A model generated the notes under the pieces. That model saw only the letters and a list, made by a program, of their open reading frames with translations, searched no databases and was not told the origin of the DNA. This document shows positions 19,777 through 56,808 of a DNA stretch of 64,000 bases, one piece after another. The stretch is from Portulaca oleracea (lineage: Eukaryota > Streptophyta > Magnoliopsida > Caryophyllales > Portulacaceae), in contig CM055893.1 in assembly GCA_029582165.1 (NCBI GenBank), positions 24,217,179-24,281,178 on the forward strand, given 5' to 3'. Position 1 is the stretch's first letter. The number at the start of each line of letters is the position of its first letter. Both the position numbers and the translations under genes were made by a program.

Positions 19777-19778
19777 AA

Positions 19779-33215: not shown

Positions 33216-33806
33216 TGTAGACACTAAAAAAAATATAAAAATAAATAATGTGCCGAAACCAATAATAATAATATAATTTAATTAATTTGGGTTAGCCCAA
33301 TTAATTAATTAAATTTATTGGACCCAAGTGACTAACAAGTCAACAGCCCAAATCAAAACCCGACAAATGGACTCTTAAGTCAACCGTCAAATTGACCAAC
33401 TCAAATGGACTACTGCTCAACTTTACCGCAGACCGGCCAATCTACCGAGAGAGACAAGTTAAAGGCCAAACTACAAGATGTCGTTCTCTATAAATACGGA
33501 GGATACTCATTCATTAAAAAGGTCGAAAATTTAATCATTCAAACACACTCTCTCTAGATTCCAACAACAAACACATAAAAGTGTCGTTGCTCTAGAGATT
33601 CAACATAGAAGGCGCGGTGAAGATTGAAGTTGTTCCAGTCTACCATCAAGCCATAAATTCGGAGATCGAATCAGAGGATTTTATTTTTGTTGCGTTGTAA
33701 CAAAATATAGAGATTGTACCCATTCTTTGAATATAACACAAAAATTATATTTGTCCATTATTTTCTTGTCTTTAATTTATTTTAGACTCAAGAATTTGTG
33801 GTTACA
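33216..33806 (+). mobile_element. 3' LTR of the Tat element
   Basis: It starts TGTAGACACT and ends GTGGTTACA. The last ~300 bases match the 5' LTR with only a handful of differences. The first ~280 bases carry many substitutions and an extra patch, GTGACTAACAAGTCAACAGC, near 33327. Confidence 0.92.
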
Positions 33807-33808
33807 AC

Positions 33809-35353: not shown

Positions 35354-35883
35354 TGTTTTGCTTGTTTTAGCCCCTTGATTATATATTAGTTATGATGATT
35401 TTGAGTTTTTGTAGGATAATAAAAAGTTAGAAGGAAAACCAAGACAAAAAGATAAAAATCAGCAAAAATCCAGCAGTGTAGCACCCGCTACACTAGGCGT
35501 AGCGCCTGCAACACATGGGTAACACCCGCCACACCAGACGTGGTACCCGCTCCAGCATCCGAGAAATCAAAATGCTTCCTTCATAGTGTCGCACCCGCTA
35601 AGCTGAGGGTGACGCCCGCGACGTCCAAATGCCAAAAATGCAAAATCAGTCAAGCGAAACAGTGCCAACCACGGGCAGTTCGTAGCGTATGCCACAGACC
35701 TTGATGACTCGTTGCGCCCGTGACGATATGGGTAGCGCCCGCGACGACTGTTGAGCGAGTGACGGATGAAACGAACCAGAGCAGACGTCACGCCCGCGTC
35801 GCTGGGTGTAGCACCCGTGACCGATTAGAAATCTACGAAAGAATGTGTGGCAGCTGTTCTTTTAATATCAGCTTAATTGTAGG
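35354..35883 (+). mobile_element. Outer Athila 5' LTR, left part
   Basis: This is the U3 portion. It contains a degenerate array of GTAGC-ACCC-GCTAC motifs at 35478-35820. It is interrupted at 35884 by the minus-strand chromovirus-like element and resumes at 56012. The left terminus is tentative. Confidence 0.65.
35478..35820. repeat. GTAGC(R)CCCGCTAC dyad array
   Basis: The best copy, GTAGCACCCGCTAC, is at 35478-35491. Degenerate copies follow, for example GTAGCGCCTGC, GTGGTACCCGCTCC, GTAGCGCCCGCGAC and GTAGCACCCGTGAC, with irregular spacing. In the restored LTR order the array ends ~100 bases upstream of the TATA box at 56047. Confidence 0.75.
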
Positions 35884-37324
35884 TGATGTATTACGGGACA
35901 AGGAAAGACTCCTAATTCAATAATACATGAAACACGTGCAACCACGACTGAGAGAGAGGGTAAGAGGTCACATGAAAGGGTGAGAAAGGGGGAGTTTCAC
36001 GTGAAAAAGGAAGGCTTTTATGTCATGAGGACTTTTGTGATTTCAAGAACCAAGAAAGAATGATTCTTGAATGGGAAAGAGGAAGAGAGGATTGAATCTT
36101 GGATGGAGGGAGAGTATGACGTGAGGGAGAAGGGAGGGAGGAGATTGTTTGTGGCGTGTGGCCTTTGAGGGAGAAAGGGGAGAGAGGGAGTTTGTTGAGA
36201 GTTTGTTATGGAGAGAGAAGGGAGGTGGTTAGGGTTCTTTGTGAGAGAGAGAGAAGGGAGGACGATTTGAGAGGGAGAAAGAAAGGAGGGGGACGTTTGG
36301 GAGGAGGTGGTAGTAAGGATAGGTTTGTCTTAACTATATTGATAGAAAGACAACAATGTAATTATCTTAACTGTATTCACAGAAAGATAAGAACGGATAG
36401 AACTAGGTTTCTAACTTGAATCCACAAGAAAGACAACCTATGGCTAACTAGATCTAGACCGCAACCTAGGATCAAGCTCTTCCTAACCACTTGGGTGTCA
36501 TGCCAAGCACCAATAGAAGAAAAGGGGTGAGGTTTATCCAAACACTCGAGAGAAAGCTAAAAGCTTAACTGATTTCATAATTTAAGGTTGATTGCTTGCC
36601 TTTGAGAGGCTACAATCCTATTTATACTAGGAGAGTCCTATATGGACTAGAACTCTTACTTGGCGTGCAAGCCAAGTTATTCTTCCCTAGGAGACTCAAT
36701 CTTGTCGTGCAATCCAAGATGAACTCCTCTATCTAGACGCCAACTACTCCTACTCTCCCTTGGATTAGAATCCTTATCCTAGGGTGAGTTTGTTACAACA
36801 AACCTTATCCTAGTTGTTATTGGCTTCCTAATCCAATTTGGATTAGTTACAAAATAGCTAACATTATCTAGGAAAACAAAAGTGACGCCTAATCTATCTA
36901 ATACCACATGTGATATTAATCCTAGGATGATCAAGTTTATAATTCACTTGTCATCTTACATTATTCTAAAAATAAAAACACATCAAAACTATTAAAAGCT
37001 ATAATTAAATAAATTAAATCCAAAGATCAAGATTATAAAATTGAGCTTGAATTCTTGACTTGGACATGTGACCTCTTGGACTTGGCGTGTGATCTTGGCC
37101 CAACTAGGATGTTTGAACATCCTCTTGAAATAAGAAACACACCATATGAATGGGCCTTCATAATTCAACTTTGTATCTTCTTTCTTTGGCCCACTTGGTG
37201 CAAATGAACCAAGTCTTCCTTATTGTTCCTATATTGGATGGAGTCCTTTGATGAAGAACCCTATCTGTAGCTTGGATCTTTAATTGGGCCTTCTTGATTG
37301 GGCCTAGGGGAGTAGGTGTGGGCT
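35884..37324 (-). mobile_element. 3' LTR (copy A) of the chromovirus-like element
   Basis: Matches 54393-56011 apart from the MITE and scattered substitutions. It lacks ~10 bases at its U3 terminus relative to copy B. A minus-strand TATAAATA lies at 36619-36626. The MITE-free site TTTGAGAG is at 36601-36608. A minus-strand PPT, CTTTCAACTATGGGGGA, follows at 37325-37341. Confidence 0.88.
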
Positions 37325-37341
37325 GTCCCCCATAGTTGAAA

Positions 37342-37717
37342 GAAGTTTGTCCTCGAACTTGGAGGTTCAAGTTCAAAGACTTCAACTAACCGGACTGAAA
37401 TCTCCACGTGGATCAGGACCTCCACATGAACCATGATTGCGTCAATGACCTCCACGTGAATCAGGGCCTTCACGTATACCTTTATGATGCGAAAGATTCG
37501 ATCTTTCTCACTTTTGTTATGCATGACTGTGTCTATGACCCACTTGTTCATGAAGGACTTCAGAACCTGATTCATGAGTCTCATAATAATAGAGAGAATA
37601 TAGATTAGGTCACAAGGTGTGACTAACCATATAAGGAGACTTCTTGGGAATTCAGAAGCAGTAATCCCTAATTGAAGTTGAATCAAGTGAGTTTCCTTCT
37701 TCTTGGCGATTGCTAGG
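37342..37717 (-). pseudogene. 3' internal remnant of the chromovirus-like element
   Basis: A minus-strand frame continues from the protease-linker region (across the TRIM) to the PPT. It includes a repeated HVEV block from CCTCCACGTG repeats at 37400-37475. It ends near a SRTNFFQL segment like the C-terminal end of chromoviral polyproteins. About 3 kb of RT, RNase H and integrase is missing between the two sides. Confidence 0.6.
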
Positions 37718-38598
37718 TGTCACGGGCATAGAGTTTGGCGCAGCATTCGCCCGTGTGGCACCCCGAGTCCTCCCACTCACTCAGGGTTCAGCCGACCTAG
37801 ACATAGTGTATCGCACTGGTTTCGCCGCCGGCTCATCAGAGAGAGCGGCAATCACCGATTGCCCTTGATATCCCCGTGCCCATTTCCTTGCAAAATCCAC
37901 TTGGCTCACCTGCATTTAATGCAAGGTATAACCACGCCTTAATGCTATTGCCGCCCTTCCTCAAGCACAACCAAGCGACACACCGCACAACACCGGGCCA
38001 CGCCACATCCAGCCGCGTGACATTCTCCCCACTCAATCTAGCACGCCGCTGGGAGAAAACTCGCCCTAAGATCATCACACACTCGCCGCCATGTACAAGC
38101 CAACCGTCCCGCCAACACCCTCATGAGTCGACCCGCTAGTGGCCATCCTATACCACGCCTCGTGATGGGGCGCCTCGCACACGCCTCTTCCTCCGTGCAC
38201 GCACTCCGCCGTCTCTTACCCCGAACCCACTCACGGCATTGGGTCGCCACACAACAAATAAGTGTATGACACCGCTCCGATACCATTTGTCACAGCATAG
38301 AGTTTGGCGCAAGATTCGCCCGCGCGGCACCCGAGTCCTCCCACTCACTCGTGGTTCACCGACCTAGACATAGTGTATCGCCTGGTTTCGCCGCCTCGGG
38401 CTCATCGGAGCGGCAATGACCCTCGACCGGTTGCCCTTGATATCCCGCATTGCCCCTTTCCTTGCTAAATCCACTGGCTCACCGCACGAATGCATCAAGG
38501 TATAACCACGCCTTAATGCTATTGCCGTCTCCCTTCCTTGAAGCACAACCAAGCGACACACCGTATAACACCAGTCACGCCACATCCAGGCCGTGACA
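37718..38598 (-). mobile_element. Complete TRIM
   Basis: Two direct repeats of 305 and 311 bp (37718-38022 and 38288-38598) have inverted termini TGTCACGG/CCGTGACA. On the minus strand a PBS, TGGTATCGGAGC (tRNA-iMet type), lies at 38274-38285, 2 bases after the 5' LTR. A PPT, GATTGAGTGGGGAGAA, lies at 38023-38038, directly before the 3' LTR. The internal part is 265 bp and non-coding. The flanks share TAGG (37714-37717 and 38599-38602), a 4 bp TSD. Confidence 0.85.
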
Positions 38599-40408
38599 TA
38601 GGGCACTTGAATGTTCAACTTGCTTCCCAATTTTTCCCTTGGCATGACAAACAACTAAATTTCGAACCCTTAGATCAGTATTAAGGTTCACGTGACCTTC
38701 TGCAAGTTGAAGTTCACGTTGACCGGACTCCTTTGAAGCTTGTACCACTGAGCTCTCGTGTTTGGTGACAATAGGGAGCTTCTTTTCTGAATTTGTGTGG
38801 CCAAGACTTGATGGAACAACCTCCTTTTGTTCATTAAACTCAAGGCGTTCGGTGATCATGAAAGATATGATCTTTGAGTCATTCCTAGGAGCCAATTGTG
38901 ATGGCTTTAGGGGAGCTAATGTGACCCTCTTGTTCTTCACCATTAATGTGTAGGTGTTAGCTCTTCCATCATGTGTAACGCTCCTGTCAAATAACCATGG
39001 TCTGCCAAGCAGAACATGACAGGCATCCATAGGTAGTACATCACACTAGATAGAATCTTGATAAGACTTCCCGATAGAAAAGCTTACCAAACAGTGCAGG
39101 TTCACTTTCAAGCCTTTACACTGATTGAGCCACTGAACAGTATAGGGCGTGGGGTGTGGGCTTGTAGGGAGTTGTAGCTTACCATAGTAGTTGAAACTGC
39201 ATTAGTACAACTTCCACCATCAACGATCAATGAACAAACTTTCCCTTGCACAGTACAGCGGGAATGGAAGATGGCTTCCCATTGTTGCAAATCTTCAGGA
39301 ACGGGAGAGCTATTCAGAACTCTCCTCATAACCAGCATCTCACCCTGATCTGGTTCTTCCACAACCTCTTCTTCAGATTCGTTGTGTGTGGCGTGGGGTT
39401 CCTCTTCTACATCCGTCGGTTCAGGTTCAAAGAGAGCGTTTTGGAATTCTAGCAGTGTGATTGCTCTCTTGTTTGGACACTCCGAAGCAATATGACCGAG
39501 CCCTTGACACCTAAAACACCTCTTTTTATCCGTAGGTGGAACTGGAATGGATCTTTGAACAGTTTGAGGGGTACGATTTGGCGTTTTTGTGGCGGACGAA
39601 TGGGAATGGGTTTGGCTCTTTTGTGGAGTGTAGGATTGAGGCGAATAGGAAGTTCTTTGGGAACTAGGGTTCTTGTTTGGTGTCTCCTTGCCTCTTCTTT
39701 TCTTTTGCTGTTCCACTTTATTAGCCAAAGTACTCAATTCATCAAGAGTTTCATAAGGTTGATGTTCCACCACATACCTTATGTTTTCGTTTAAGCCAAC
39801 AAGATACCTCACAAGAGTTTGAGGTTCATCCTCTTTCAGATCACACCTCCAGAGTAGGTGTTCGAATTGTTTAGTATACTCTGCAACAAATTTCGTTCCT
39901 TGGGATAATTGTTGCAACTTGAAGTAGTTGTCCTTGAAATAACTCACTGGAAGAAACTTGGAGTGGAGTTTCTTCTTCATCTTTTCCCAAGTGCGAATCT
40001 TTTCTTTCCCGGCATGTTGTCGCTTCTTCTGTAGGTTAGTCCACCAAATACTAGCATGCTTTCGAAGTTTAAGAGCAATGTACTTTACTTTCTTATCATC
40101 AGGTACATCTTTAAGATAAAAGACTCTTTCAACAGTTTGGATCCAATCAAGAAAGATTTCAGGATCAAGATTACCGTCGAATTCAGGAATATCAACTTTA
40201 AAGTCGAGTCTTTCTTCCCTTGATTCACGCCTAGGTCGACGTGAGCTCCTGGACGATGAGTTGAAAATTCAGCTTCACTAGGACTGTCAGGAACGTCCTC
40301 TTCTTCAGGTTCTCGGGGTGTCCTGAATTGCAGATTCATGTACCGCTTCAGCTGATCAGATAGGTAGGCTATTCTTCCTTCCAGTTCAGCCTTTTCGTGC
40401 TTCCATTG
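38599..40408 (-). pseudogene. gag: Chromovirus-like gag and protease
   Basis: The gag starts at ATG 54174 (minus strand), is cut at 54135 by the Athila element and resumes at 40408. The capsid part includes YTKQFEHLLWRCDLKEDE and LDELSTLANKVEQQ. A zinc knuckle CFRCQGLGHIASEC with CX2CX4HX4C spacing lies near 39520. The protease has LIVDGGSCTN near 39210 and LLGRPWLFD near 39000. A frameshift lies near 40260. The region upstream of 38599 is cut by the TRIM. No RT follows. Confidence 0.82.
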
Positions 40409-40413
40409 CTCAG

Positions 40414-42165
40414 TGTAACGTGGTTTTTGTACCCCGATTTTATATCGTTCTTCACAGGGAGCTAGGGGCCTTGGCTAGGACTAATTGACTCTAGGTGAGG
40501 TTTAGGATCACAAGATAACAAGAGGGATTTTGATGACGAACAGAACAAACACAACTATGGTTTAGTCAATACGGGAAATAATGGGTGTTGGGAGATTTCG
40601 GGACGCAAACGCTAATAAGGACGAGGGTTTCGCAATTAGAAAGCAACAAAATTAGTAGAATCAAGTGACAATCCCGTTAGAATAAACCCACTGGATTTCC
40701 TCCTTCAAGGACAATCCGGATTAACTTCCTACAAGCCCACCACGGACCCGGAGGGTTAAAGAAACGGGACTCTCTAATTAGCTTCTATTCACTTTCGTGA
40801 ATAGAATACTAATTATCCTAATTCCACCTTCCAACTCAAGTGTTGGTGGTATTTGGGGGCTTTCATACCTAAATACATCCCACTTGAGGGAAGAATAGAA
40901 ATGGAAAATTGATTTCACTACAAATTACCTCCTAAAATTGCTAACCCAATCCAAATAAACCATTCACATCCTTAGTTTCTCCCTAACCCATAAGGGTTCT
41001 AGCCTCTAATCATCTTAACTAACATGCTAACAACAATAATAACATCATCCATGCTTAAAATAGAGGCTCTAGTAAATCAAAGCAACAATAGCAACAATCA
41101 ACAAACACTAAGCAATCTAATAACAAAAAACAGAGATTAAAGAGTAAATGGATGAACTAAAGAGAGTAAGAGTTAAGAAATGCTCATTAGTTTGATGCCA
41201 ATGGAAAGATGCTCCAGTCTAATAAGAATCCAATGCTCCAAAATAAGATAAATCTTCAAAACGTCAATAGAATTCCAATAAAATCCAGTGCAAAAGCAAT
41301 AATCCATGTGTAATCACTCACTAATCACTAGGAACTTTCTCTAATTGAACGCTAAAATGTTGCTAATATGATAAGGTAAAAACTAAGATGGAATTAAGAT
41401 TACCTCCCTTTTACTAATCGTCCAAGTCGCAATATATACAAGCCAAAAAGGTTACTCAAAACGCAGCACTTCACCCAACAGAATTGCACGAACTGTAGGG
41501 GACCGTAGGTACGGTCTATGGGACCGTAGCTACGGTCTTGTGAAGCGAGCTGGGCGATTTTCTCTCCTTCGCAACACCGTAGACACGGTGTATCTGGACC
41601 GTAGGTGCGGTCAAGCGAATTAGGCTAGGCGATTCTTCTCTCCTTCGCAACACCGCAGGTGCGGTCCCCCAAGACCGTAGGTGCGGTCAAGCTAGGGTAC
41701 TTCACTTCCTGCACACACCTTGGCACTACCGCAAGTGCGGTCCTCAGGACCGTAGGTACGGTCTCGCCCGGTCAAGCTGAAGCTCTGGGCGTAGCGCCCG
41801 CTACGTAGAGGGTGATGGGGGCTACGCCTAGGTGCGTGTAACGGCGAGCGGAGGAGAAGGGGTAGCACCCGCTACAAAGAGGGTGGCGGGGGCTACCATG
41901 GCAAAACTCAGCAAAACTTTTACTTTTGAGCCACTCGACATGTCCAACCTTTTTACTTTCTTTGCCCTTGACTCGGTGAAGACTCGGGAAATCTGGGGAT
42001 TCCCAAAATAGCTACAAAATGGCCCTTTTTACCACGTTTTGAGTAAAGATTCCAAAATCTACAAAATAACCAAAAACGTATTAAAAACTATGAAATTAAA
42101 CTTCGAAACAAGTCAAAAGCCTAAGAATTAAGGCGCTATTTAGACACAAAATTGGGTCTAAACAC
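40414..42165 (-). mobile_element. Athila 3' LTR
   Basis: 1,752 bp. U3 (right side, minus orientation) carries both dyad families: GACCGTA-type at 41501-41763 and GTAGC-type at 41791-41875. A minus-strand TATA-like TATATA is at 41433-41438, below the arrays. A PPT, AAGTGTGGGGGG (minus), adjoins at 42166-42177. Confidence 0.92.
41501..41875. repeat. Two dyad-motif arrays in Athila U3
   Basis: GACCGTAGGTACGGTC occurs at 41501-41516 and 41748-41763. The fully palindromic GACCGTAGCTACGGTC is at 41522-41537. Degenerate CCGTAGGTGCGGTC and CCGCAGGTGCGGTC forms lie between. GTAGCGCCCGCTAC is at 41791-41804 and GTAGCACCCGCTAC at 41862-41875. The spacers are not conserved. Confidence 0.88.
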
Positions 42166-44329
42166 CCCCCACACTTGAACGTTTGCTCATCCCGAGCAAA
42201 ACAAGATAAAAACTACCTAAATTAACACAAACTCCTCTGTCGTGGGAGAGAAACGAGTGCATTTAGCATATGCACCAAGCCCTTTGAACCCCCCGGCAGC
42301 CCGGGTGGACGAGATGGACTCGTGAGGGTTTGTAGCCGCTACACCCACAAAAGCCAAAGGAAAAGGAGAGAGGGAAAGTGAAAACAAAACCAAGGAAAAC
42401 AAAAGAAAAGAGGAACAAAAGCTTCGCTTCAAAGGATCTCGAAATCTAAATTAGGAAAACGTTATTAAACCTCCAAAAGGAACCATTATGAGCATTTCAC
42501 GAACACCTAACCCAAACAGAAATCATTCTTTGAGATTTTCGATGTCCTACACCTAATGCCAAGAAAAACCCCATGTGCTAGTGGGTTCTAACCGATTCCA
42601 ATAGAATCCAGAGACTCGTGCCCGAGCTCAAAAACAAACGAAACGAACAAGGAAAAGAAAAGAGTTGCCTTTCCCCGCATTTGGTCGCCCTTGGCTTGGT
42701 GAGGGCCGTAGGTGATGTAAGGAGAGGCCCCTCACTTTATTAACGCTTAAACTTTTCTTTTTGGGGTTGGGTATTCCCAACCAAATTCTCTTTTCTCTTT
42801 TTTTTTTCTTTTTTACTTTTTAAAGGTCGGTATTAGCCTTACTTTCGGGAATTGGACGACCCATAATTCGGGGTTTACCCTCCCAACACAGTCTTTTCCA
42901 TACACACCTCTGTCGAGAATTCGATATAGGAGGAGCTTAAGGGGTAATAGCGTCGTACCGCTAATACCGGGCCGTGTAGGTTGGCTAAGTGTATGGTGGT
43001 TGATGTTGTAAAGCCGACACGCCCCACTTAATCAGGTTATTAAAGCTTTGCTTTCATTTTCTTTCTTTTTGCTTTTGCTTTTGCTTTTCCTTAAACAGGA
43101 CAGAGAAACGAGCTCAGACATAAACCTCGAGAATCTCCCGGTTTCAACCAGAACGTGGAAGGAATCGGGGGTCTCACTAAACGTTCAAAGTAGGACATCT
43201 AAAGAGATAAGTCATGACTAGAACTCGAGATAGGGTCGAAACGTTCAGACCGGTTTCTTTTAAAGAAGTTTAAGAACGACTTCTCAATTTGGACACAAAG
43301 ATCCAAGAAACAAAGCGAAACAAAGCGAAAACGAAACAAAAGAAAACTTTTAGGGTTTTCACTCGCTTTTTTCTCCTTTTTCACAAAATTTTTTTTTTCA
43401 AATTTTAGGCAAAAACTAAGAAAACAAAAACAAAAATGCTAGGTGATCTACCCTTGAAACAGAATATCCCCCCCCCCCACACACACACTTAAAACGCCAC
43501 AATGTCCTCATTGTGGGAAGGTGTCACATGAAAAGGGTAGAGAACCTACAAAAACAAACAAACAAGAACAACTAGCACATAAAAGTGGTGGCGACCCGAG
43601 CCCACACGACTCCAACAACAATATAATCCCAACACAAACACTCAAAGGGGCTCGCCACCCAAAAGAAAATCAAGCATGCGACGGATCAGAATAATAATTC
43701 ACATAGGAAAGAGCAAGGTGGAAAGATGTTACCTCGAGCTCTTCATAAGTGTTCAAGCCGTGATCCGAAGTCGTCGTTCAATTGAATCATAATGATATTA
43801 GAGCAAAGGGACGACTTTATACATGACAAAATCCACATGCTAGATCGAAAACAAAATCAAAGAAAAACTACCTAACAAAACTTTTAAAACAAAAGGGAAC
43901 TGAAAAGAAGAAAAACTATAAACAAAATGTACATTGCCAATGACATGCCTTATCCCTGAATCTCACTCATTGAGGTGGGAAATAAGGGTGAAACTCAACT
44001 CAAACTGACCAAACAACTTCATTCATTTCATTTCATTAAAGGAAAACATTCATACATGCCGTCATAACCGTCCGTACCCAAAATACAACCACCTACCTAC
44101 CAAGACAAACCAACTATGCCCAAAATACAGCCAAAATACAATCAAAAGAACACCACAAACCAAGCCCGACCAACTTTGAGAGCAACACCAAAACAAGCCA
44201 AAAGGACCTGAAACACCTACTCGCCAAAACCACAGAGCTTCCCCCATCCAAACTCCCCGATGATGCACCCCCCCCCCCCAACACGCTTTACATTTTACAA
44301 AGTAAAATATGGAAAATCAATAAGAAAGA
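42166..44329 (-). other. Athila 3' untranslated region
   Basis: Long non-coding region between the env-position ORF and the 3' LTR. It has purine- and pyrimidine-rich tracts (42780-42830, 43380-43430) and C-runs at 43470 and 44270. No conserved protein domain was seen. Confidence 0.6.
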
Positions 44330-45827
44330 TCAAGTGGGGGGTGTGGGGACACTTACAACCGGTCCATCAAGCGGATCCTCCCGGAAGAGGATGGGGTTGG
44401 AAGAAAGACGGGTAATAGGGATTCTCGTAGTCCGAAGGTGCCGGGATACGACCCTCAATAGTGTAATGATGAAAACCCAGTCTCGCATGAAGTGGTTTTG
44501 TTGGCGGAATTTCTCATCATGACGATGCAAGTATTGTCGGATGCTCACAATCTCCTTCTGCTGATCTTTTAACAGCTTCACTTGAGCGCGGAGGAGTTTG
44601 TTCTGCTCACGAACTTCAGCACCCAAACTCTTGATTGAGGCAACCACTTGGTCCAAATTGTCATGCTTTGCCGAGCTCCCAGGAATCTCCTCTTGATCGC
44701 TTTCCTCAAACTCTTCCAACAAGCTAGAAACAGGGATAGGTGCACCACCGATTTTCCTTGGCCAACCATGCATAGAACTGCCCCCACGACCAATTTTCAT
44801 TAATTGCAATATCGAGCCACTTCTCGGCATTTGCGGTATCGAGAGGAATGTGGATCCTCTTATCAGCGTATCCATGATGATAAACAGTGTGTGATTGGCG
44901 CTCGGAAAGTATCTCCATTTGGATCAACAAATCTCTATCGATGGGAATCGGTATATAGCATGGTTTCCACTTCTGAAGATAAGACCCAAATCCTTGTTTC
45001 CGGAGGAAGTGACATATGACATGACCCATTCCCAAGTTAGCTAAGTTATCCGTCCTACTCATTTCCCATAGCCAGTGTAGGATGCACGAGCCTAAGTTCA
45101 CTCGGCGCCCCTTCAAGGTGTTGTAAATTACAAAGAGATCTTCCTTACGGACACTAGAACGTCCCTCATCTCGCCCGAAAGTTGAATTAGAAATCACCAG
45201 GTGAAATAGCCGCACAGCAGGATTACAGATGTCTCGTACTCGAGATTCTTCCGGACAATAAAATTTCACACACCCTTCTTCCCTATCAACAGATGCTCTT
45301 CTCCAACAAGTCAAACTCTTCCATGCTTCTTGTTCGTTGAAATCCTCACACTCCCAAAAGTACACCCCATCCTCTGGCAATTCGAATGCTTTGCAAAACT
45401 CCTGGACAGAACAATCTATCTCCCTATCATCCATTCTATAGTTGAACATGGCCTCAGGATACCCATCGGTGATGACTTGAATCGTGCTCATGAACTCTAA
45501 CATAGGTTGGTCTAGGATGGGTTCCTTGACGTTGAGGAGTACGCCCCACCCCTGTGTTCGAGTGAGAATATTGAAACTAGACCGACAATGGAGAGTATTG
45601 ATTGTTTCATCAGTGCAAATCTCCGGAGCATAGATCTTTCGTTCTTGGAGCTCCTCATAGTGAGTTTTATGCGGTCCACCACGAAAAGTAATTCTAGTAC
45701 GAGGGCAGCTTCTAATGAAGGTAGCTGGCTGGGTTCTTCTCAATTCGAGAGAAGATGACATGAGGGGCGTTGACGGAGAAGGATTACTAGGTCGAGCTCT
45801 CTTTGGTTTCCCCATTTTAGCATGCAA
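44330..45827 (-). pseudogene. Athila ORF in env position
   Basis: On the minus strand an ORF starts at 45827 and runs in frame to ~44740, then continues in the other frame to 44330. It resembles the ATHILA ORF / putative plant transposon protein family (EICTDETINTL, a W-rich core, FHLVISNSTFGRDEG, VICHFLRKQGFGSY). The C-terminal part is a coiled coil (LGAEVREQNKLLRAQVKLLK). I see no signal peptide or convincing membrane anchor, so I do not call it an envelope. It lies downstream of the integrase, where Athila elements carry an extra ORF. One frameshift breaks it. Confidence 0.75.
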
Positions 45828-46803
45828 TACTCAAAAATCCAGAGTCCAAACAGAGAATATGTGCACAAAAATCACCCAAGATTAGTAAGACAATGAACTT
45901 TGATGAACAATAGAGTGAGGAATACCTGAGTTGAAGACTTAGACACCATCCCTTGCCATTTTCGAACCTCAACAAGGTCTCCATGCATGAATTTCACTTG
46001 AAGAGCTCCAAAAATGGTGAGAAAATGCAAATGTGGCGCGGCTAGGGCACAAATTTGCGAAATTGAAGAGTGGAGAGGATGAATTTTGTGAAGGATTTGG
46101 GTGATTGGGCCAAGAGAATTTGGGATTTTAGGGTTTAGGGGAGGTTTTCGAGCGGGTGAGTGAGGAAAGAAATGAGGGAAAATGAAAAAGAGAGAAAGTT
46201 TAAGCCCCGAAATTTTTCACAGATTCGACAGACCGCAGGTGTGGTTCCAAGGAGCGTAGGTGCGGTCCTCTGCGGCTACAATCCTGAGACAAAAATTGTT
46301 TTCCTGCGACCGTGGGTGTAGTAACGTCGACCGTAGGTGCGGTCCAGTTCCTAGGCCAAAAACTTGGAAAAATGAGATAGTATGACTGTAGCTGCGGTCT
46401 TCTTTGGCTTCTCCCCTGCACCTACAGGACTTCAAAAACTTGAAAATAATGTTAAGTCCTAAAATTCTACTCTCTCATTATCAACCCTCTTTTCTTACTC
46501 ACTCATAAACTTTCAAGAACATCTTTCAACACTCAAAACCACCATGTATCACTTCCTTCGCAAATTTTCTTCTCACCCTCAAAAATTTTTCATTTTTCTC
46601 AATATTTTCTCTCTTTTCTTTTTTTTTTCTAAGATTTTCTCCACTCTTTTTTTTCGTTTCGTTTTCCTCAAACTCAAATAATGATTAGAACAAGAACATA
46701 AGAAGAAAAATGGAAGAAATAAAAGAAAACACTAAGGAAAAGGAGAGTAACTGGTACCTCTCGGTTGCTTGTTTTAGGTCCCAGCTTGACCTAAACCATT
46801 CTT
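45828..46803 (-). promoter_or_regulatory. Spacer with GACCGTAGGTGCGGTC motifs before env-position ORF
   Basis: Five degenerate copies of the U3 dyad occur at about 46229, 46252, 46306, 46329-46344 and 46383. They lie 370-580 bases upstream of the ORF start at 45827. The rest is AT-rich, with pyrimidine runs near 46610-46660. The same motif in U3 suggests an internal promoter; that is inference. Confidence 0.5.
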
Positions 46804-48038
46804 TCAACTTTCAATGTCGGCGAGGAACACCACTACTGTCCCCGCATACTCCTCTCCCATAATGTATGGCTTGATCTTCGATGAATTGACTTTGAAGCAA
46901 TCCCCCTTTGCATTTTTAAGTTCATCAACCCCAGCGGGAAGGATCCTTACGATTTCAAAGGGCCCGTACCATCTCAATCTCAGCTTCCCGGAAAATAGTT
47001 TGAGCCTCGAATTGAAGATAAGGACTCTATAACCCACAACAAATTCGCGAGGGTTCAATCTCTTTTCGTGCCATGCTTTTGTTCGGTCTTTGTAGATCCT
47101 ATTATTTTCATAGGAATGACGTCGCAGCTCCTCAAGCTCCTCCAATTGAAATAAACAACTTGTCCCGGCCGCCTTGAGATCATAATTCATTTTCTTGATC
47201 GCCCACATCGTTTTGTGTTCAAGTTCTACGGGAAAATGGCATGTTTTCCTATAGACAAGACGATACGGAGTAGTCCCTATCGGCGTTTTGAAGGCGGTGC
47301 GATATGCCACAAGACATCATCTAATTTCTCCGCCAAATCCCTTCGTAAGGAACTAACCGTCTTCTCCAAAATCTCCTTGATAGCACGATTTGAAATCTCT
47401 AGTTACCCTTGCGTTTGAGGGTGATAGGGGAGTCCTCTTTTGTGATTGATACCATACTTCGCTAAGAGGGAGTCAAACCTCTTCTCAATAAAATGAGATC
47501 CATTGTCGCTAATAATAGCCCTCGGAATACCTAATCTTGGGAATAAAATCTTCTTCAAAAACCTTGACACAGATTTGTCATCGCATCTCACGCATGGGAT
47601 TGCTTCAACCCATTTCGATACATAGTCTACCGCCATAAGAATGTATTGATGAGCCTTCGATGACGAAAAGGGACCCATAAAATCCAATCCCCACACATCG
47701 AAAAGCTCTACCTCGAGAATGAAATTCAGTGGCATCTCATTTTTCCGGGAAATATTTCCGGACCATTGGCATTTATCGCATGACTTGACATGAAGGTGAG
47801 CATCTCGAAAGAAGGTCGGCCACCAATAACCGGCTTGTAGGACTCTCGCGGCCGCCTTTTGAGATCCACCATGACCTCCAACCGGGAACTCATGGCAATG
47901 TGTCAACACGGACTTCACTTCACTCTCGGGTAAGCATCTTCTATACATTCCGTCATTGCATAAATAGAAGAAGAACGGATCGTCCCAAAAGAAATGTTTC
48001 ACGTCATGAAAGAACTTTTTCTTTTGATGCGGGGTCAA
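46804..48038 (-). pseudogene. int: Athila integrase
   Basis: The N-terminal zinc region has HCHEFPVGGHGG and CDKCQ. The core has D in VWGLDFMGP, D in IISDNGSHF and E in the EIS segment after a stop at 47403. That stop replaces the residue following HPQTQG. The C-terminal part (46804-47310) has the SH3-like region [18 protein letters not shown] and YGPFEIV. A stop and shift also lie around 47310-47400. Confidence 0.87.
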
Positions 48039-48041
48039 ATT

Positions 48042-48575
48042 TTAAGGAATCACCTCACTAGACAAGTAGTTGATGATATCGGCGTACCATGGGTGAGAAT
48101 GCTTGATAGTCATAAGGTGTTCATCCGGAAAAGATTCCATAATGGGTTGAGTATCATCCAAATCAACAAGGATCCTCGATAGGTGGTCGGCCATAACATT
48201 CTTAGTCCCGGCCTTGTCACGAATCTCCAAGTCGAACTCTTGCATAAGTAAGACCCAATGAATGAGTCTTGGCTTCGTTTCTTTCTTGCCCATTAAGAAC
48301 TTTATTGCGGCATGATCCGTGTACACGATAACCTTGGAGAACATGAGGTATTGCCGAAATTTGTTTACAGCAAAGATAATGGCCAAGAGCTCCTTTTCCG
48401 TGGTCGTACAATTTTTCTGTGCGCTATCAACGCATGGCTTGCATATTAGATGACCCGCGGCTTCCTCTCTTTGGTTTGAGCCAAACATGCTCCAATTGCG
48501 AAATCGCTAGCATCGGCTATAATCTCGAAAGGCAATGTCCAATCCAGAGGTTGGACAACCGGCGCGGATATCAAA
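48042..48575 (-). pseudogene. Athila RNase H
   Basis: [12 protein letters not shown] near 48500 gives the first catalytic Asp. [19 protein letters not shown] gives Glu. [14 protein letters not shown] gives the next Asp. It ends with [21 protein letters not shown] frame break lies near 48490, and a stop at 48042 separates it from the integrase. Confidence 0.87.
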
Positions 48576-48577
48576 GC

Positions 48578-49440
48578 TTACTTCAACCTGAAAAAGGACT
48601 TGAGACATTCATCAGTAAAGGAGAATAGGGCATCCTTGCACAAGAGATCAGTTAAAGGACGAGCGATTTTAGAAAAATCCTTGACGAACCGACGGTAAAA
48701 GCCGGCATGGCCAAGGAAACTACGCACCCCTTTAACGAAAACTCGGGGTGGTAGGCGGTCTATCACTTCAACTTTTGCCTTGTCAACTTCGATGCCCCTC
48801 GAAGAAATTAAATGTCCCAAAACAATACCTTCTTCTACCATAAAATGGCATTTCTCCCAGTTCAAAACTAAGTCGACTTCCTCATAACGAGTAAGAACTT
48901 TCTCTAAGTTAGTCAAACAATCATCAAAGGTATTACCATAGACAGAAAAATCATCCATAAAAACTTCCATACATTGCTCAATGAAGTCACTAAAAATGGC
49001 CATCATGCATCGTTGAAATGTTCCCGGTGCATTACACAAACCAAAAGGCATATGTCTATAAGCAAATGTACTATATGGGCAAGTGAAAGTAGTTTTTTCT
49101 TGATGCGCGGGATGGATTGGAATTTGAAAAAAACCTGAGTACCCATCTAAAAAGCAAAAATATGAATGACCCGCCAACCTCTCTAACATTTGGTCAATGA
49201 AAGGGAGAGGGAAATGGTCTTTCTTGGTCACTTTGTTCAACTGGCGATAGTCGATGTACATCCGCCATCCCGTGACGGTTCGGGTACTAACTAGCTCTTT
49301 CTTCTCATTCTCAACAACTGTCATCCCACCCTTCTTTGGCACACACTGAACCGGGCTTACCCATTCGCTATTTGCGATAGGGAAGATGATCCCAGCAGCC
49401 AACAACTTAACTACTTCTTTCTTAACCACATCTTACATAT
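48578..49440 (-). pseudogene. rt: Athila reverse transcriptase
   Basis: RT blocks in order: VQCVPKKGGMTVV, WRMYIDYRQLNK, DHFPLPFIDQML, CFLDGYSGFFQIPI, FAYRHMPFGLCNAP, the catalytic VFMDDFSVYG near 48950, and GIVLGHLISSRGIEVD. FMDD in place of YVDD is usual in Athila. A stop at 49430-49435 precedes it. This domain is one of the better preserved parts of the element. Confidence 0.9.
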
Positions 49441-49446
49441 TAGGAT

Positions 49447-50961
49447 TCAATCTACGTTGCGGTTGCCTAGATGGTTTTGCATCTTCGAACAAATCAATGG
49501 AATGCATACAAATAGAGGGGACAAACCTTTCAAATCCTCAATTTTATAACCTAAAGCACCCCTATGCTTTCTCAACAAATCAAGCAACTTGGACAAATCA
49601 GAATCATGCAACTTAGCATTCACAATAACAGGCAAAGATTTTTCATCATCCAAGAAAGCATATTGCAAGGAAGGGGGTAAAGGTTTAAGCTCTAAAGAAG
49701 AAGTAGAGGATTTAGCTTGGGAAGAAAACATATCCTTGCAGATCACTTCTTGAATCTCCATACACTCAATATGAGGCTCATCAATAGTAATCTCCTCATG
49801 CGTTGGTGATGAATCAAGAAGGTTGGTGAGAAACGTGATGTCGGTGCCGTCGTTCTCAAATTGGAAAGATTCTAGTAGACAAGCTCCCAAAGGATCATCG
49901 CAAGTAGACTCAAGTAGATGAGATTCTTCAAGATATTCATCAACTAGTACTTCCATCATATCGATAGCATAACATGAACCCCCATATGAAGGATTTTTCA
50001 AGGATCCCTCGAGGTTGAAAATAATGCTCGCATCACCAACATTCAATGACATACTACCATGTTTCACATCTATTATCACTCTGGCCGTAGCAAGGAATGG
50101 CCTTCCCAAAATAATAGGAATGTTGTGGTCTTCCTCCATCTCTAAAATCACGAAATCACAAGGTATCAAAAATCTACCCACTTCGACGGGAATATCTTCC
50201 AATATACCCATGGCTCTTCGCACGGAGCGATCGGCTAATTGAAGATTGATGGTCGTGGGAGTTAAATCATCGAGATTCAACCTCTTGCATATATAATAAG
50301 GCAAAACGCTCACGCTAGCCCCTACATCACAAAGAGCACGACCAATCCGCATGTCCCCTATGGTGCAAGGAATAGAAAAACTTCCGAGATCAGCTAACTT
50401 CTCCGGAGTTTTGTTGTCAATAATAGCACTACAATCAGCAGTCAAGTGGATAGTTGACTTCTCTTGAATCCTCGTTTTACTAGTGAGAAGTTCCTTCAAA
50501 TGCTTGTTGAAAGATGGAACCTCGGAAATAGCATCTAGGAATTGAATGTTCACTTGAAGCTTTTTGAGCATTTCGATGAACTTTGAAAACTTCGCATCGG
50601 ACTTGGGCTTTTCCAAACGTTCGGGAAATGGAACCAACGGTAGCTTTGGTTTCTCAATAACTTGGATCGGCTCCTCTTCCACCACTATTTCTTTCCCTTT
50701 CCTAGATTCATCCAACTCCTCCTCATGTACCTCCTTATCTCCCTCAACCAAAACAAACTCACTCTCCTGTTTCTCCACCAAATCCTCCTCCTCCGTAACA
50801 TCCACCACATCACCTTCTTTTTCTCCCAAAGCATCTTTCTCCACCAACTTAGGGCCTTCAACCTCCCTACCACTCCTCAATGTTATAGCATTCAACTGCC
50901 CCTTAGGGTTTGGTTGGGGTTGGCTAGGAAGGGATTGGATAGGCTTAGATTGTTGCGACAT
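49447..50961 (-). pseudogene. Athila gag C-terminus and protease
   Basis: An intact frame of 504 codons. It starts in a low-complexity acidic linker after gag. ITLRSGREV is a conserved Athila motif. The protease active site is ALCDVGASVSVLP (near 50310), and ILGRPFLATA follows. The end leads into RT and is cut by a frame loss near 49447. It is the longest open frame in the window. Confidence 0.88.
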
Positions 50962-51122
50962 TTGAGCAAAATGTAACTCAAGATTTTGATGCGTGCTTGG
51001 TCTCTATCCTGAGTTAAAGAGATCTTTTGTAAGATTTGCTCGATGGAAAATTCTTGTTGTGGTGGTTTGGGTGGTTGGGAAGTTTGACCATGGTGAGGGT
51101 TTTGTTGATATTGGCGGCGGTT

Positions 51123-52277
51123 TTAGTTTTGGAAACCGAGGGGTTGGTTTTGATTTTGTGGAGCTTGTTGGTTATAGGCATAATTTCCACGAGGACGAAT
51201 AGGGTTATGTGTGGAATAGGACAGATTATTGTTAGGATAAATAGCTTGGACTTGCTCGGCTTGATACTCCTCACACCATTGCAAAGAATGTGGCCCTCCA
51301 CAAAAATCACATACAAGAACTCGGACATCTGGAATAAGCATAGGTACTTCTTGAGCTGCCTTTATTCGCCCCGTAGTCTCTTCGAAGGCCTTCTTCTGTT
51401 GCATCTCTAGTACGACATTCATGAGAAATTTGATCGTAGGGTTGCTCTCTAAAGAAGGACCTCCATCTTTTGGACCACGGCCGCCTCCCCAATGTGGAGA
51501 GTTTTGACATAACTCATGGAGAAATACGTTTGCTTCATCCGCCGTCTTCTTGAGAAACATGCCACCGGAGGCATGATCGATAGATTCTCGCAAAAAGCTA
51601 CATAATCCCAAATTAAAATGATGTAAAAGTAGCTAATCCTCCAGATTGTGGTGAGGACACCTCCGTTGGAGACCTTTGAATCTCCCCCATGCTTCGAATA
51701 ATGACTCACCGGACTCTTGTTGAAAACTCATAATGGCTTGCCTCAAACGACACGTCTCATCATTGGGAAAAAACCTTTGAAGAAAATCACGACTAAGGGC
51801 ATCCCATGTAGAATAAGTACCCGGTGGACACGTGTTGAGCCACAATAGTGCTTTTTCCTTCAAAGTGAGTGGGAAAAACTTCAGCTTCATGTATTCGGCG
51901 GAAACTTCGTTCATTTTCACGAAACCGATACGTTGCTCGAACCTATTGATGTGATCGATGGGATTTTCATGATCTCCTCCATGGTACGGAGTGTTCTCGA
52001 ATATCTCCAACAAATATGGTTTAAACTCGAACGATGCGTTTTGCGGTAATGTAGGTAATACTATGGGATTGCTTCCCGTACCCGACGATGGTAATGAGTA
52101 TGATGCTACGGTACGGGGTGGATCTGGTTCTCCGTCAGACATTGGAATTTCGATCGTCTCTTGATCCCTTTGTCGTCTTCTTCGTCTCGAGCTGGCGTTT
52201 TCTTGGTGAATAATACTTTTCGGATTCGAAATCGGTGGAGTTTTAGGGGTTCGGCCTCGTCGAGATCGAGTCTGCAT
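51123..52277 (-). pseudogene. gag: Athila gag
   Basis: It starts at the ATG of MQTRSRRGRTP. The capsid domain has FEFKPYLLEIFENTPYHG, LKFFPLTLKEKALLWL and FFPNDETCRLRQAIMSF. An in-frame TAG near 51633 replaces the family's Trp. A zinc knuckle CDFCGGPHSLQWC (CX2CX4HX4C) lies near 51300. It ends near 51123 and the linker continues at 50961. Confidence 0.88.
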
Positions 52278-52393
52278 GCACAAAAAGAACAAATAGAAGG
52301 ATCAAATTCCCAACAACCAAGGATATCAAATCTGTACCAAATGAAATGATCTTAAACAACCTAAAGACAAAGAGCTAAGCAAAGTGCACTTGC

Positions 52394-52411
52394 TCCCCGG
52401 CAACAGCGCCA
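52394..52411 (-). other. Athila primer-binding site
   Basis: On the minus strand TGGCGCTGTTGCCGGGGA lies 5 bases after the 5' LTR end. This is the standard Athila-type PBS. Confidence 0.85.
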
Positions 52412-52416
52412 TTTTG

Positions 52417-54129
52417 TGTAACGTGGTTTTTATACCCCGGTTTTATATTGTTCTTCTCAGGGAGCTAGGGGCCTTGGCTAGGACTAATTGACTCTAGGTG
52501 AGGTTTAGGATCACAAGATAGCAAGAGGGATTTTGATGACGAACAGAACAAACACAACTATGGTTCAGTCAATACGGGAAATAATGGGTGTCGGGAGATT
52601 TCGGGACGCAAACGCTAATAAGGACGAGGGTTTCGCAATTAGAAAGCAACAAAATTAGTAGAATGAAGTGACAATCCCGTTAGAATAAACCCACTGGATT
52701 TCCTCCTTCAAGGACAATCCGGATTAACTTCCTACAAGCCCACCACGGACCCGGAGGGTTAAAGAAACGGGACTCTCTAATTAGCTTCTATTCACTTTCG
52801 TGAATATAATACTAATTATCCTAATTCCACCTTCCAACTCAAGTGTTGGTGGTATTTGAAGACTTTCATACCCAAATACATCCCACTTGAGGGAAGAATA
52901 GAAATGGAAAATTGATTTCACTACAAATTACCTCCTAAAATTGCTAACCCAATCCAAATAAACCATTCACATCCTTAGTTTCTCCCTAACCCATAATGGT
53001 TCTAGCCTCTAATCATCTTAACTAACATGCTAACAACAATAATAACATCATCCATGCTTAAAATAGAGGCTCTAGTAAATCAAAGCAACAATAGCAACAA
53101 TCAACAAACACTAAGCAATCTAACAACAAAAACAGAGATTAAAGAGTAAATGGATGAACTAAAGAGAGTAAGAGTTAAGAAATGCTCATTAATTTGATGC
53201 CAATGGAAAGATGCTCCAGTCTAATAAGAATCCAATGCTCCAAAATAAGATAAATCTTCAAAACGTCAATAGAATTCCAATAAAATCCAGTGCAAAAGCA
53301 ATAATCCATGTGTAATCACTCACTAATCACTAGGAACTTTCTCTAATTGAAGGCTAAAATGTTGCTAATATGATAAGGTAAAAACTAAGATGGAATTAAG
53401 ATTACCTCCCTTTTACTAATCGTCCAAGTCGCAATATATACAAGCCAAAAAGGTTACTCAAAACGCAGCACTTCACCCAACATAATTGCACGAACAGCAG
53501 CCTGTGAAGCGAGCTGGGCGATTTTCTCTCCTTCGCAACACCGTAGGCACTGTGTATCTGGACCAAAAGTGCGGTCAAGCGAATCAGGCTAGGCGATTCT
53601 TCTCTACTTCGCAACACCGTAGGTGCGGTCTCCCAAGACTGTAGGTGCGGTCAAGCTCGGATACTTTCACTTCCTGCACACACCTTGGCACCACCGCAGG
53701 TGCGGTCCTCAGGACCGTAGGTACGGTCTCGCCCGGTCAAGCTGAAGCTCTGGGCATAGCGCCCGCTATGTAGATGGTGCCGCGGGCTACGCCTAGGTGT
53801 GTCTAACGGCGAGCGGAGGAGAAGGGGTAGCACCAGCTATAAAGAGGGTGGCAAGGGGCTACCATGGCAAATCTCAGCAAAACTTTTACTTTTGAGTCGC
53901 TCGACATGTCCGGCCTTTTTACTTTCTTCACCCTTGACTCGTTCAAGACCCGGGAAATCTCGGGATTCCAAAATTGCTGCAAAATGGCCCTTTTTACCAC
54001 GTTTTGAGTAAAGACTCCAAAATCTACAAAATAACCAAAAACGTATTAAAAACTATGAAATTAAACTATGAAACAAGTCAAAAGCCTAAGAATTAAGGCG
54101 CTATTTAGACACAAAATTGGGTCTAAACA
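52417..54129 (-). mobile_element. Athila 5' LTR
   Basis: 1,713 bp, close to the 3' LTR. Differences include loss of two GACCGTA units near 53495 and scattered substitutions. The GACCGTAGGTACGGTC dyad is at 53713-53728. The GTAGC dyad has become CATAGC-GCCC-GCTATG (53755-53770). The TATA-like TATATA is at 53435-53440 (minus strand). Confidence 0.92.
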
Positions 54130-54134
54130 CTCAG

Positions 54135-54392
54135 TAGGATCATCACCTTCGTTGCTCTTACTTCCAGATGCCATTGGGTCTAAACACTCAGTAGATTAGT
54201 ACTGAAGGTTTGAAGGTAATGTGTTTGGTATCGCAGGTTAAGCTTTTGGCCTTGCAGGTTATGTTTTTGGACTTGTAGGTTAAGCTTTGGACTTACAAGT
54301 TAAGCTTTTGGAATTGAAGGTCATGTGTTTGGTTTAACTCTGTGGAATTCAGGGCTGCACTCAACATTAACCTAGAGCTTTGATACCACTTT
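54135..54392 (-). other. Chromovirus-like gag start, 5' leader and PBS
   Basis: Minus-strand ATG at 54174 opens the gag (MASGSKSNEGDDPTE). The leader upstream holds a 22 bp copy (54173-54194) of the Athila junction at 54116-54137. The PBS is 54375-54388 (minus TGGTATCAAAGC). LTR copy B starts at 54393. Confidence 0.75.
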
Positions 54393-56011
54393 TGATGTAT
54401 TACGGGACAAGGAAAGACTCCTAATCCAATAATACATGAAACACGAGCAACCAAGACTGAGAGAGAGGGAAAGAGGTCACGTGAAAGGGTGAGAAAGGGG
54501 GAGTTTCACGTGAAAAGGGAAGGCTTTTATGTGGTGAATACTTTTGTGATTTCAAGAACCAAGAAAGAATTATTCTTGAATGGGAAAGAGGAAGAGAGGA
54601 TTGAATCTTGGATGGAGGGAGAGTATGACGTGAGGGAGAAGGGAGGGAGGAGATTGTTTGTGGCATGAGGCCCTCGAGGAAGAAAGGGGAGAGAGGGAGT
54701 TTGTTGAGAGTTTGTTATGGAGAAAGAAGGGAGGTAGTTAGGGTTCTTTGTGAGAGAGAGAGGGGAGGACGATTTGAGAGGGAGAAAGAAAGGAGGGGGA
54801 CGTTTGGGAGGAGGTGGTAGTAAGGATAGGTTTGTCTTAACTATATAGATAGAAAGACAACAATGTAATTATCTTAACTGTATTGACAGAAAGATAAGAA
54901 CGGATAGAACTAGGTTTCTAACTTGAATCCACAAGAAAGACAACCTATGGCTAACGTGATCTAGACCGCAACCTAGGATCAAGCTCTTCCTAACCACTTG
55001 GGTGTCATGCCAAGATACAATAGAAGAAAAGGGGTGAGGTTTAACCAAACACTCGAGAGAAAGCTTAAAGCTTAACTGATTTCATAATTTAAGGTTGATT
55101 GCTTGCCTTTGAGAGCAAGGTTGTTAAAATCGAGATCCTAACTCGAAACTATGGGGAAGTTAGGATCGGAAATTAGCCCATGTAGGATCGTGGATCGTGT
55201 GTAAATTGTAGAATCGTAACGAGTATTTTGGACCATAAAATCGTAGGATCGTAAATCAGGATCGGGATTTTAATAACTATGTTTGAGAGGCTACAATCCT
55301 ATTTATACTAGGAGAGTCCTATATGGAGTAGAACTCTTACTTGGCGTGCAAGCCAAGTTATTCTACCCTAGGAGACTCAATCTTGGTGTGCAATCCAAGA
55401 TGAACTCCTCTATCTAGACGCCAACTACTCCTACTCTCCCTTGGATTAGAATCCTTATCCTAGGGTGAGTTTGTTACAGCAAACCTTATCCTAGTTGTTA
55501 TTGGCTTCCTAATCCAATTTGGATTAGTTACAAAATAGCCAACATTATCTAGGAAAACAAAAGTGACGCCTAATATATCCAATACCACACGTGATATTAA
55601 TCCTAGGATGATCAAGTTTATAATTCACTTGTCACCTTACATTATTCTAAAAATAAAAACACACCAAAACTATTAAAAGCTATAATTAAATAAATTACAT
55701 CCAAAGATCAAGATTATAAAATTGAGCTTGAATTCTTGACTTGGATGTGTGACCTCTTGGACTTGGCGTGTGATCTTGGCCCAACTAGGATGTTTGAACA
55801 TCCTCTTGAAATAAGAAACACACCATATGAATGGGCCTTCGTAATTCAACTTTGTATCTTCCTTCTTTGGCCCACTTGGTGTAAATGAACCTTCCTTATT
55901 GGTCTTGTATTGGATGGAGTCCTTTGATGAAGAACCCTATCTGTAGCTTGGATCTTTAATTGGCCCTTCTTGATTGGGCCTAGGGGAGTACGGGTGGGCT
56001 GATTTCCATCA
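54393..56011 (-). mobile_element. 5' LTR (copy B) of the chromovirus-like element
   Basis: Matches copy A, with a 166 bp MITE plus TSD near the predicted transcription start. Minus-strand TATAAATA is at 55300-55307. The U3 terminus TGATGG (minus strand) is complete here, unlike copy A. Confidence 0.85.
55116..55281. mobile_element. hAT-type MITE in LTR copy B
   Basis: Imperfect inverted ends, CAAGGTTGTTAAAATC against CATAGTTATTAAAATC, bound 166 bp. A perfect 8 bp TSD, TTTGAGAG (55108-55115 and 55282-55289), is single in copy A (36601-36608), so an empty site proves the insertion. Confidence 0.9.
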
Positions 56012-56781: not shown

Positions 56782-56790
56782 ACCCAAAAA

Positions 56791-56808
56791 TGGCGTCATT
56801 GTTGGGGA
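56791..56808 (+). other. Outer Athila primer-binding site
   Basis: TGGCGTCATTGTTGGGGA differs from the Athila-type PBS TGGCGCTGTTGCCGGGGA at a few positions, mostly as C-to-T-type changes. Confidence 0.7.

Follow-up and report, generated by a model that had tools for sequence, protein, structure and literature searches.

A window of 64,000 nt from Portulaca oleracea, by which we mean the whole stretch of DNA analysed, is a plant nest of long terminal repeat (LTR) elements, here called O, S, T, A, B and C (Table 1). C is inserted within A, and A in turn breaks up B. O is called Ogre-like and B and C Athila-type, and primer sites are named by the transfer RNA (tRNA) type that they resemble. The U3 regions of B, C and the solo LTR S carry arrays of short dyads, about 50–105 bp upstream of a TATA-like box (about 92 bp in B, with the inserted A subtracted), and C carries a second array inside the element. 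The boxes could be read in the sequence where the original prediction had placed them. Its limits for S and its position 54129, the exact outer end of C, agreed with the target-site duplications (TSDs).

Table 1. Elements, arrays and reading frames of the window.
Feature	Position	Strand	Remarks
O, Ogre-like element	~1–12990	+	LTR start near 10588; TATAAAT near 11970
O, U3 of LTR	10588–11969	+	25 copies of CTCGCGGAT; 33–34 bp tandem arrays; directional
S, solo LTR	14928–16391	-	TSD AAAGG
S, U3	16027–16114	-	three GGCAC-N-ACCC-GTGCC dyads
T element, LTRs	19203–19777 and 33216–33807
B, Athila-type element	U3 from ~35366	+	broken by A, resumes near 56020
B, U3	35478–35821	+	GTAGC-RCCC-GCTAC array of 12 sites scoring at least 12 bits; most decayed
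B, TATA-like box	56043–56054	+	TATA at 56047; array separated off by inserted A
A element, LTRs	35884–37325 and 54393–~56010	-	control LTR without dyad array
C, Athila-type element	40414–54129	-	3' LTR 40414–42164; 5' LTR 52417–54129; TSD CTCAG on both sides
C, 3' LTR TATA-like box	41433–41445	-	~67 bp downstream of nearest dyad centre
C, 3' LTR U3	41501–41763	-	eight GACCG-CACCTA-CGGTC dyads
C, 3' LTR U3	41791–41896	both orientations	four GTAGC-type dyads
C, ATHILA ORF-1-like frame	44724–45830	-	stop to stop, 368 codons; env position
C, pyrimidine-rich stretch	46139–46198	-	83% of 60-mer; 0.3% of C 60-mers reach that
C, internal array	46231–46399	-	five GACCG-type dyads, between pol and ORF-1-like frame
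C, pol: integrase	48041–47403	-
C, pol: reverse transcriptase	49432–48578	-
C, pol: protease	51003–49447	-
C, 5' LTR TATA-like box	53435–53447	-
C, 5' LTR U3	53539–53728	-	six GACCG dyads
C, 5' LTR U3	53756–53840		GTAGC-type dyads, partly decayed

The dyad words are far more frequent than expected. With up to two mismatches, GACCGTA-NN-TACGGTC was matched 11 times in the window, compared to 0.07 matches expected, and all of these lie inside C. The word GGCAC-N-ACCC-GTGCC was matched three times (0.08 expected), always in S, where a fourth, weaker dyad at 16007–16021 was spotted by eye. Our search for GTAGC-RCCC-GCTAC gave 12 rows (0.13 expected), one place being counted on both strands, and every row falls within the U3 of either B or C. 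Hence, all three of these families, as named in the original prediction, were recovered, with the reservation that the GTAGC copies of B are mostly decayed and only the one at 35478 is exact.

This is further supported by counts of perfect short dyads made without naming any word, against 200 dinucleotide shuffles per region. The U3 of the 3' LTR of C contained 15 such dyads compared to 2.3 in the shuffles, and that of S contained 6 compared to 0.8; neither count was reached by any shuffle. The U3 of the 5' LTR of C was marginal (5 versus 1.9, reached by 12 of the 200 shuffles). No significant enrichment was found in the R-U5 of C (3 versus 1.2, reached by 20 of 200, and 1 versus 1.1), and perfect dyads were absent from the R-U5 of S and from region 56047–57000 of B. 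The LTRs of A (4 versus 2.2 and 3 versus 2.6) and T (1 versus 0.3 in each) were rejected as further array carriers, as their dyad counts were not in excess.

A symmetry-blind count of 6-mers, with 100 shuffles per region, placed the top count above every shuffle in the U3 of the 3' LTR of C (9, shuffle maximum 6), in the internal region of C (4 versus 3) and in the U3 of O (22 versus 10). A slightly exceeded its shuffles (9 versus 8) with non-palindromic words, and the 5' LTR of C, the U3 of S, the U3 of B and T remained within the shuffle maximum. The observed/expected CpG ratio and G+C content were 0.96 and 0.59 in the 3' LTR of C, 0.84 and 0.53 in its internal region, and 1.17 and 0.58 in B, compared to 0.69 and 0.42 in the whole window; S had a ratio of only 0.59 at a G+C content of 0.58. 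Among viral contigs, the GACCG word occurred in 44, of which 43 had one match and one had two, which we read as chance.

The original prediction described a parallel use of dyads in unrelated elements. This was too strongly worded, since B and C are both Athila-type and have the GTAGC dyad in common. A blastn comparison of their U3 regions gave four short hits, three of them on dyads, and the two regions align almost nowhere else. S had no blastn hit to C or B at an E value of 0.1.

Adjacent dyads tend to stand about 21 bp, or two helical turns, apart. Spacing was measured from centre to centre on sites found in weight-matrix scans at 12 bits or more (word matches for S), taken best first and without overlap; the weaker overlapping hits at 41805 and 53770 were excluded. 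The GACCG dyads in the 3' LTR of C are spaced at 21, 53, 22, 54, 22, 54 and 21 bp, those of the internal array at 21, 56, 21 and 55 bp, and the GTAGC dyads of C at 21, 50 and 21 bp, a step that they keep in opposite orientations. In B, the spacings are 21, 20, 21, 48, 21, 73, 29, 21, 27, 28 and 21 bp, and in S 52 and 21 bp (20, 52 and 21 bp if the by-eye site at 16007 is included). In total, 15 of the 27 adjacent spacings measure 20–22 bp, compared to 2.9 expected from random non-overlapping placement across the same spans, a result reached in none of 50,000 trials. The 5' LTR of C (22, 54, 22, 55 and 21 bp) did not enter this total, being a repeat of the 3' LTR, from which it differs by a 38-bp gap that removes one dyad pair.

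A scan for strong dyads of any word found seven pairs 20–22 bp apart in the window, six of them in C or S, compared to 0.48 expected and a maximum of 3 among 60 shuffles. The strong-dyad pair at 57508/57530, which lies in a tandem repeat, was excluded as an array. In the 3' LTR of C, exact copies of the half-sites GACCG and CGGTC occur, for the most part alternately, at intervals of 10–11 bp, and therefore up to four half-sites are available per pair along a single helical face. The weight of the spacing evidence is that several arrays, built of different words, share one step.

The internal array of C contains the same 16-mers as its U3, in the same orientation and with the same step, just beyond the end of pol, which we placed by eye at ~46.8 kb. 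We made 14 comparisons of two internal pairs with seven U3 pairs. One dyad of the pair was 75–100% identical and the other 50–81%, but the 38 bp following the pairs were never more than one standard deviation above the shuffle mean. In line with this, blastn of 46200–46700 against the LTR of C gave seven hits, all on dyads. The dyads of the two arrays match, while the DNA between pairs agrees no better than shuffled sequence. This is our strongest indication that the sites have been kept rather than the surrounding repeat, and it suggests constraint on the dyad sites themselves. The second array also qualifies the statement that the arrays lie in U3, which holds for the arrays of B, C and S listed above and fails for this one and for many copies of the Ogre-like word.

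The ORF-1-like open reading frame (ORF) lies downstream of the internal array, beyond the pyrimidine-rich stretch and one of the window's six telobox-like words (at 46129). It matches the ATHILA ORF-1 family only marginally (PF03078, 21 bits, cut-off 20.2), and PF20167 at 32 bits, below the cut-off of 45. Its predicted structure was unusable (mean pLDDT 33.7), and none of 449 candidates in the protein collection scored as a relative. Beyond its stop, at 44500–44724, another frame continues that by eye is charged and coiled-coil-like, so that this copy of the gene seems to be interrupted. We propose an internal promoter for this frame, which is plausible by lineage since a promoter of the ENV ORF, with start sites annotated from RNA data, is reported for Arabidopsis Athila6A in the excerpted account (PMC4977677). 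The two elements are alike in lineage and in a promoter, proposed in our case, for a frame in env position. In contrast, no dyad array is mentioned in that excerpt (PMC4977677), and the likeness is one of description rather than of sequence.

We consider it probable, without great confidence, that the U3 of B, C and S carries an array for a sequence-specific dimeric DNA-binding protein, and that C may use such an array at an internal promoter as well. Each dyad of 14–16 bp would take one dimer. Dimers at a distance of 21 bp would face the same side of the helix and could cooperate, and a series of pairs would load the DNA immediately before the TATA box. The U3 array would then be an upstream activating or de-repressing region. 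As C repeats these paired sites ahead of its ORF-1-like frame, its genomic promoter and its proposed internal promoter could both be under the control of a single factor. It would be more parsimonious to assume a host factor and bolder to assume one encoded by the element. The dimeric-site reading put forward in the original prediction is strengthened for B, C and S, where it is the best reading, by the 21-bp pairing and by the second array of C; it does not extend to the Ogre-like family.

A bolder version would be a two-promoter circuit of Athila-type elements, similar to that of foamy viruses. An element-made dimeric protein, perhaps the ORF-1 product, would recognise dyad pairs both in U3 and ahead of the gene that encodes it, with words that change and a 21-bp grammar that stays. 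Since the recognition word changes between families, each family would activate or un-silence only itself. We regard this version as unlikely. In foamy viruses, according to the excerpted sources, the transactivator Tas targets an internal promoter in addition to the LTR (PMC8670036, PMC4929722). The likeness, two promoters under one factor, exists only if our reading of C is right (PMC8670036, PMC4929722). Foamy viruses are vertebrate retroviruses, and we claim no kinship with C.

Several results weigh against the dimeric interpretation. All evidence comes from this single window. The perfect dyads in the U3 of B are not in significant excess (3 versus 1.4, reached by 31 of 200 shuffles). The spacing in S is by itself not significant (P = 0.14), and spacings within the arrays of C and B are not independent because tandem duplication made part of these arrays. 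No TATAWA was found in 45830–46230, downstream of the internal array.

One of the refuting conditions named in the original prediction, arms conserved no better than spacers, was observed in B, with 1.46, 1.59 and 1.37 bits for left arm, spacer and right arm (flanks 0.39), and nearly so in the GACCG sites of C, with 1.70, 1.38 and 1.80 bits (flanks 0.37); the arms are not clearly better conserved, and the whole 14–16-mer is. Covariation between arms was absent in all four site sets. The LTR pair of C, which is 94% identical, differs at 17 of 153 sites in the dyads, 9 of 211 between dyads, 19 of 328 in the rest of U3 and 17 of 1020 in R-U5, and the dyads are thus its most diverged part (P = 0.02 against the inter-dyad DNA). 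There is no sign of constraint on the dyads since insertion, and none is expected.

The divergence of this LTR pair is concentrated in U3 as a whole (45 of 692 sites, compared to 17 of 1020 in R-U5, P = 2e-7), with the TSD intact. This excess could come from gene conversion by another copy or from region-specific mutation. Nine of the 17 dyad differences are in CpG context, and CpG loss was 5 of 19 in the dyads, 5 of 27 in the rest of U3 and 2 of 21 in R-U5. This fits the decay of a methylated copy and is silent on selection in an active lineage.

An alternative explanation might be that the arrays act as hairpins of RNA or single-stranded DNA. The RNA of U3 would fold and be cut into small RNAs that mark the LTR for methylation, a route argued for the palindromes of maize Sireviruses, which are small-RNA hotspots according to the excerpted sources (PMC5311732, PMC10760457). 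The concentration of differences in the dyads of the C LTR pair, half of them and more in CpG context, would suit this explanation, and the U3 RNA of the 3' LTR of C (z = -5.6) and that of S (z = -3.4) fold beyond shuffles. However, folding was no better than in shuffles for the internal array of C (z = +0.7) and for B (z = -0.8), where words and spacing are kept, and hence hairpins are not the common reason for the arrays. The lack of covariation between arms points the same way, and we judge this explanation unlikely. The arrays might also be a functionless by-product of tandem duplication, in which GC-rich words spread via slippage and unequal crossing-over. This would agree with the tandem repeats of B (period 21 bp) and of C (76 bp), with the 38-bp dyad pair by which the LTRs of C differ, and with the decayed state of most copies in B. 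Yet, simple duplication leaves unexplained why the internal and U3 arrays of C share dyads and step but not the DNA in between. Moreover, the 21-bp step stands under different words, and the GTAGC dyads of C hold it in either orientation. Duplication without function is therefore an unlikely account.

Possibly, a monomeric host factor reads an asymmetric core, for instance a MYB protein on the CACCTAC of C, with arm symmetry as a secondary feature. A MYB factor reportedly acts on a 13-bp element in the LTR of Tto1. Spacers that are about as conserved as the arms are in line with this explanation, as is the core, which stands in element sense in 12 of the 13 sites of C; the remaining site, at 41522, is fully symmetric. 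In contrast, the dyads of B and S have other cores, the arms in C are at least as well conserved as the core, and its GTAGC dyads lie in both orientations. A monomeric factor thus seems quite improbable, and the dimeric protein remains the interpretation that we prefer.

The fourth family of the original prediction, ATCC-TCGC-GGAT as a dyad array of the Ogre-like element, was not upheld. The element carries a directional word, CTCGCGGATTT; most of its copies are not dyads, and they also occur outside U3. ATCCNNNNGGAT occurs 13 times compared to 1.1 expected, and the repeated unit is CTCGCGGAT, with 64 plus and 7 minus hits at up to one mismatch across the window. Positions 1–13000 hold 63 of the plus hits, 38 of them outside the U3. 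The U3 contained only one perfect dyad compared to 2.9 expected; a dyad excess was found in the pre-LTR DNA (13 versus 6.0, reached by 0 of 200 shuffles, and 11 versus 6.0, reached by 6 of 200). We rejected the motif as a dyad family because it is directional, has a loose left arm and shows no covariation between arms (52 of 63 hits, 11 within 6556–9536 having been dropped as second copies). The original prediction as a whole was therefore partly real and interesting and partly overdrawn, in that B, C and S have genuine dyads whereas the Ogre-like family does not fit the claim.

With up to one mismatch, CTCGCGGATTT has 63 plus and 5 minus hits spread over ~12 kb (462–12947), in pre-LTR DNA, U3, U5 and leader; none occurs in 3684–7015, which holds the gag-like part. 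At this density, the dispersed directional word recalls the target words of VANC. VANDAL families have their own short words, arranged in tandem in non-coding DNA and changing between related families, and the words are read by the family's own anti-silencing protein, VANC (excerpts of PMC5735166 and PMC10398659). In these same excerpts, VANDALs differ from the elements studied here in being DNA transposons, in words that are not described as palindromic and in a binding protein that is known (PMC5735166, PMC10398659).

The assignment of C and B to lineages rests on several features. C has its gag, protease, reverse transcriptase (RT) and integrase in Ty3 order, a tract read by eye as resembling a polypurine tract, and next to its 5' LTR, at 52394, the primer site TGGCGCTGTTGCCGGGGA, which we take to be the tRNA-Asp type, an Athila feature. 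In B, such a site was not matched at up to three mismatches, the only match in the window being that of C; B is interrupted and degraded, with fragments of protease, RT and gag at 57.3–60.3 kb. Its RT is 42–48% identical to that of C, compared to 34% between C and T, a closeness established within the window only. The RT of C had no relatives among viral contigs and a single 37% match among prokaryote genomes (L045), which was not used. Rfam gave no match at the gathering threshold. The outer LTR-end words and TSD of C (TTGGGTCTAAACACTCAGTAG) recur ~60 bp outward, beyond the element (54117–54200), as if copied at the insertion junction.

The remaining elements offer further observations. S sits within what by eye is a copia pol gene. 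Presumably, the primer site of O at 12593 is tRNA-Arg-like and that of A at 54377 tRNA-iMet-like. The right LTR of A has a stretch of ~170 bp (55116–55281) that the left one does not have, and a partial third copy of this LTR (61653–62295), 99% identical to 54517–55159, lies within the DNA that interrupts B. T has a 94-bp unit repeated 5.5 times at 30757–31273, between pol and 3' LTR, as described for Retand.

The closest known layout is that of the Sireviruses, which are Ty1/copia elements. The excerpted account describes CpG-rich repeated motifs, each element having a single palindromic word in numerous copies, which lie above the TATA box in the LTR's upper half and again 5' of ENV; its authors call the repeated motif Sirevirus-specific and absent from classic elements (Bousios et al. 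2010, PMC2829016). C resembles this description in having many palindromic copies upstream of the TATA box and further copies 5' of a frame in env position (PMC2829016). At least eight copies upstream of the TATA box are found in the 3' LTR of C (eight GACCG and four GTAGC dyads), and five extra copies lie 5' of the env position; B has 12 sites, mostly decayed, and S only 3–4. Judged by CpG observed/expected and G+C content, the cluster is also CpG-rich in C and B. In contrast, the CGG-CCG core of Sireviruses is not found, the cores being CCG-CGG in C, GTAGC-GCTAC in B and GGCAC-GTGCC in S. C is moreover of the Ty3 type and not a Sirevirus, because its RT precedes the integrase, whereas Sireviruses have the integrase before the RT. 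In four Sirevirus words of the excerpt the left arm includes CGGTC, which is a half-site of C with its polarity reversed (PMC2829016), which is only a lead because GC-rich pentamers are so few. The spacing between copies is not discussed in that excerpt (PMC2829016).

Other plant elements resemble C in part. Retand has extra frames downstream of pol together with tandem repeats, and a predicted DNA-binding product, in the excerpt of PMC11963269. C likewise has an additional frame after pol and before the 3' LTR, but the frames of Retand are antisense and encode TRP28, whereas that of C runs in sense and resembles ATHILA ORF-1 (PMC11963269, in part). The cis-motifs of Tnt1 and Tto1 belong to other lineages and are other words, according to the excerpt of PMC9033089. 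The general theme is already known, since the excerpt of PMC10760457 states that cis-regions of transposable-element families are often arrays of repeats, sometimes palindromic. A partial survey of the literature found no report of dyad arrays in the U3 of Athila elements.

Our results show that a layout once held special to the copia-type Sireviruses is also present in a Ty3-type Athila element. This points to convergence or to a rule shared by plant elements that have a gene in env position. The constant 21-bp pairing under changing words provides a concrete binding model, which makes it testable how the frame in env position is switched on and what this frame does. If the unlikely two-promoter circuit were true, the ATHILA ORF-1 family would gain a role other than that of an envelope.

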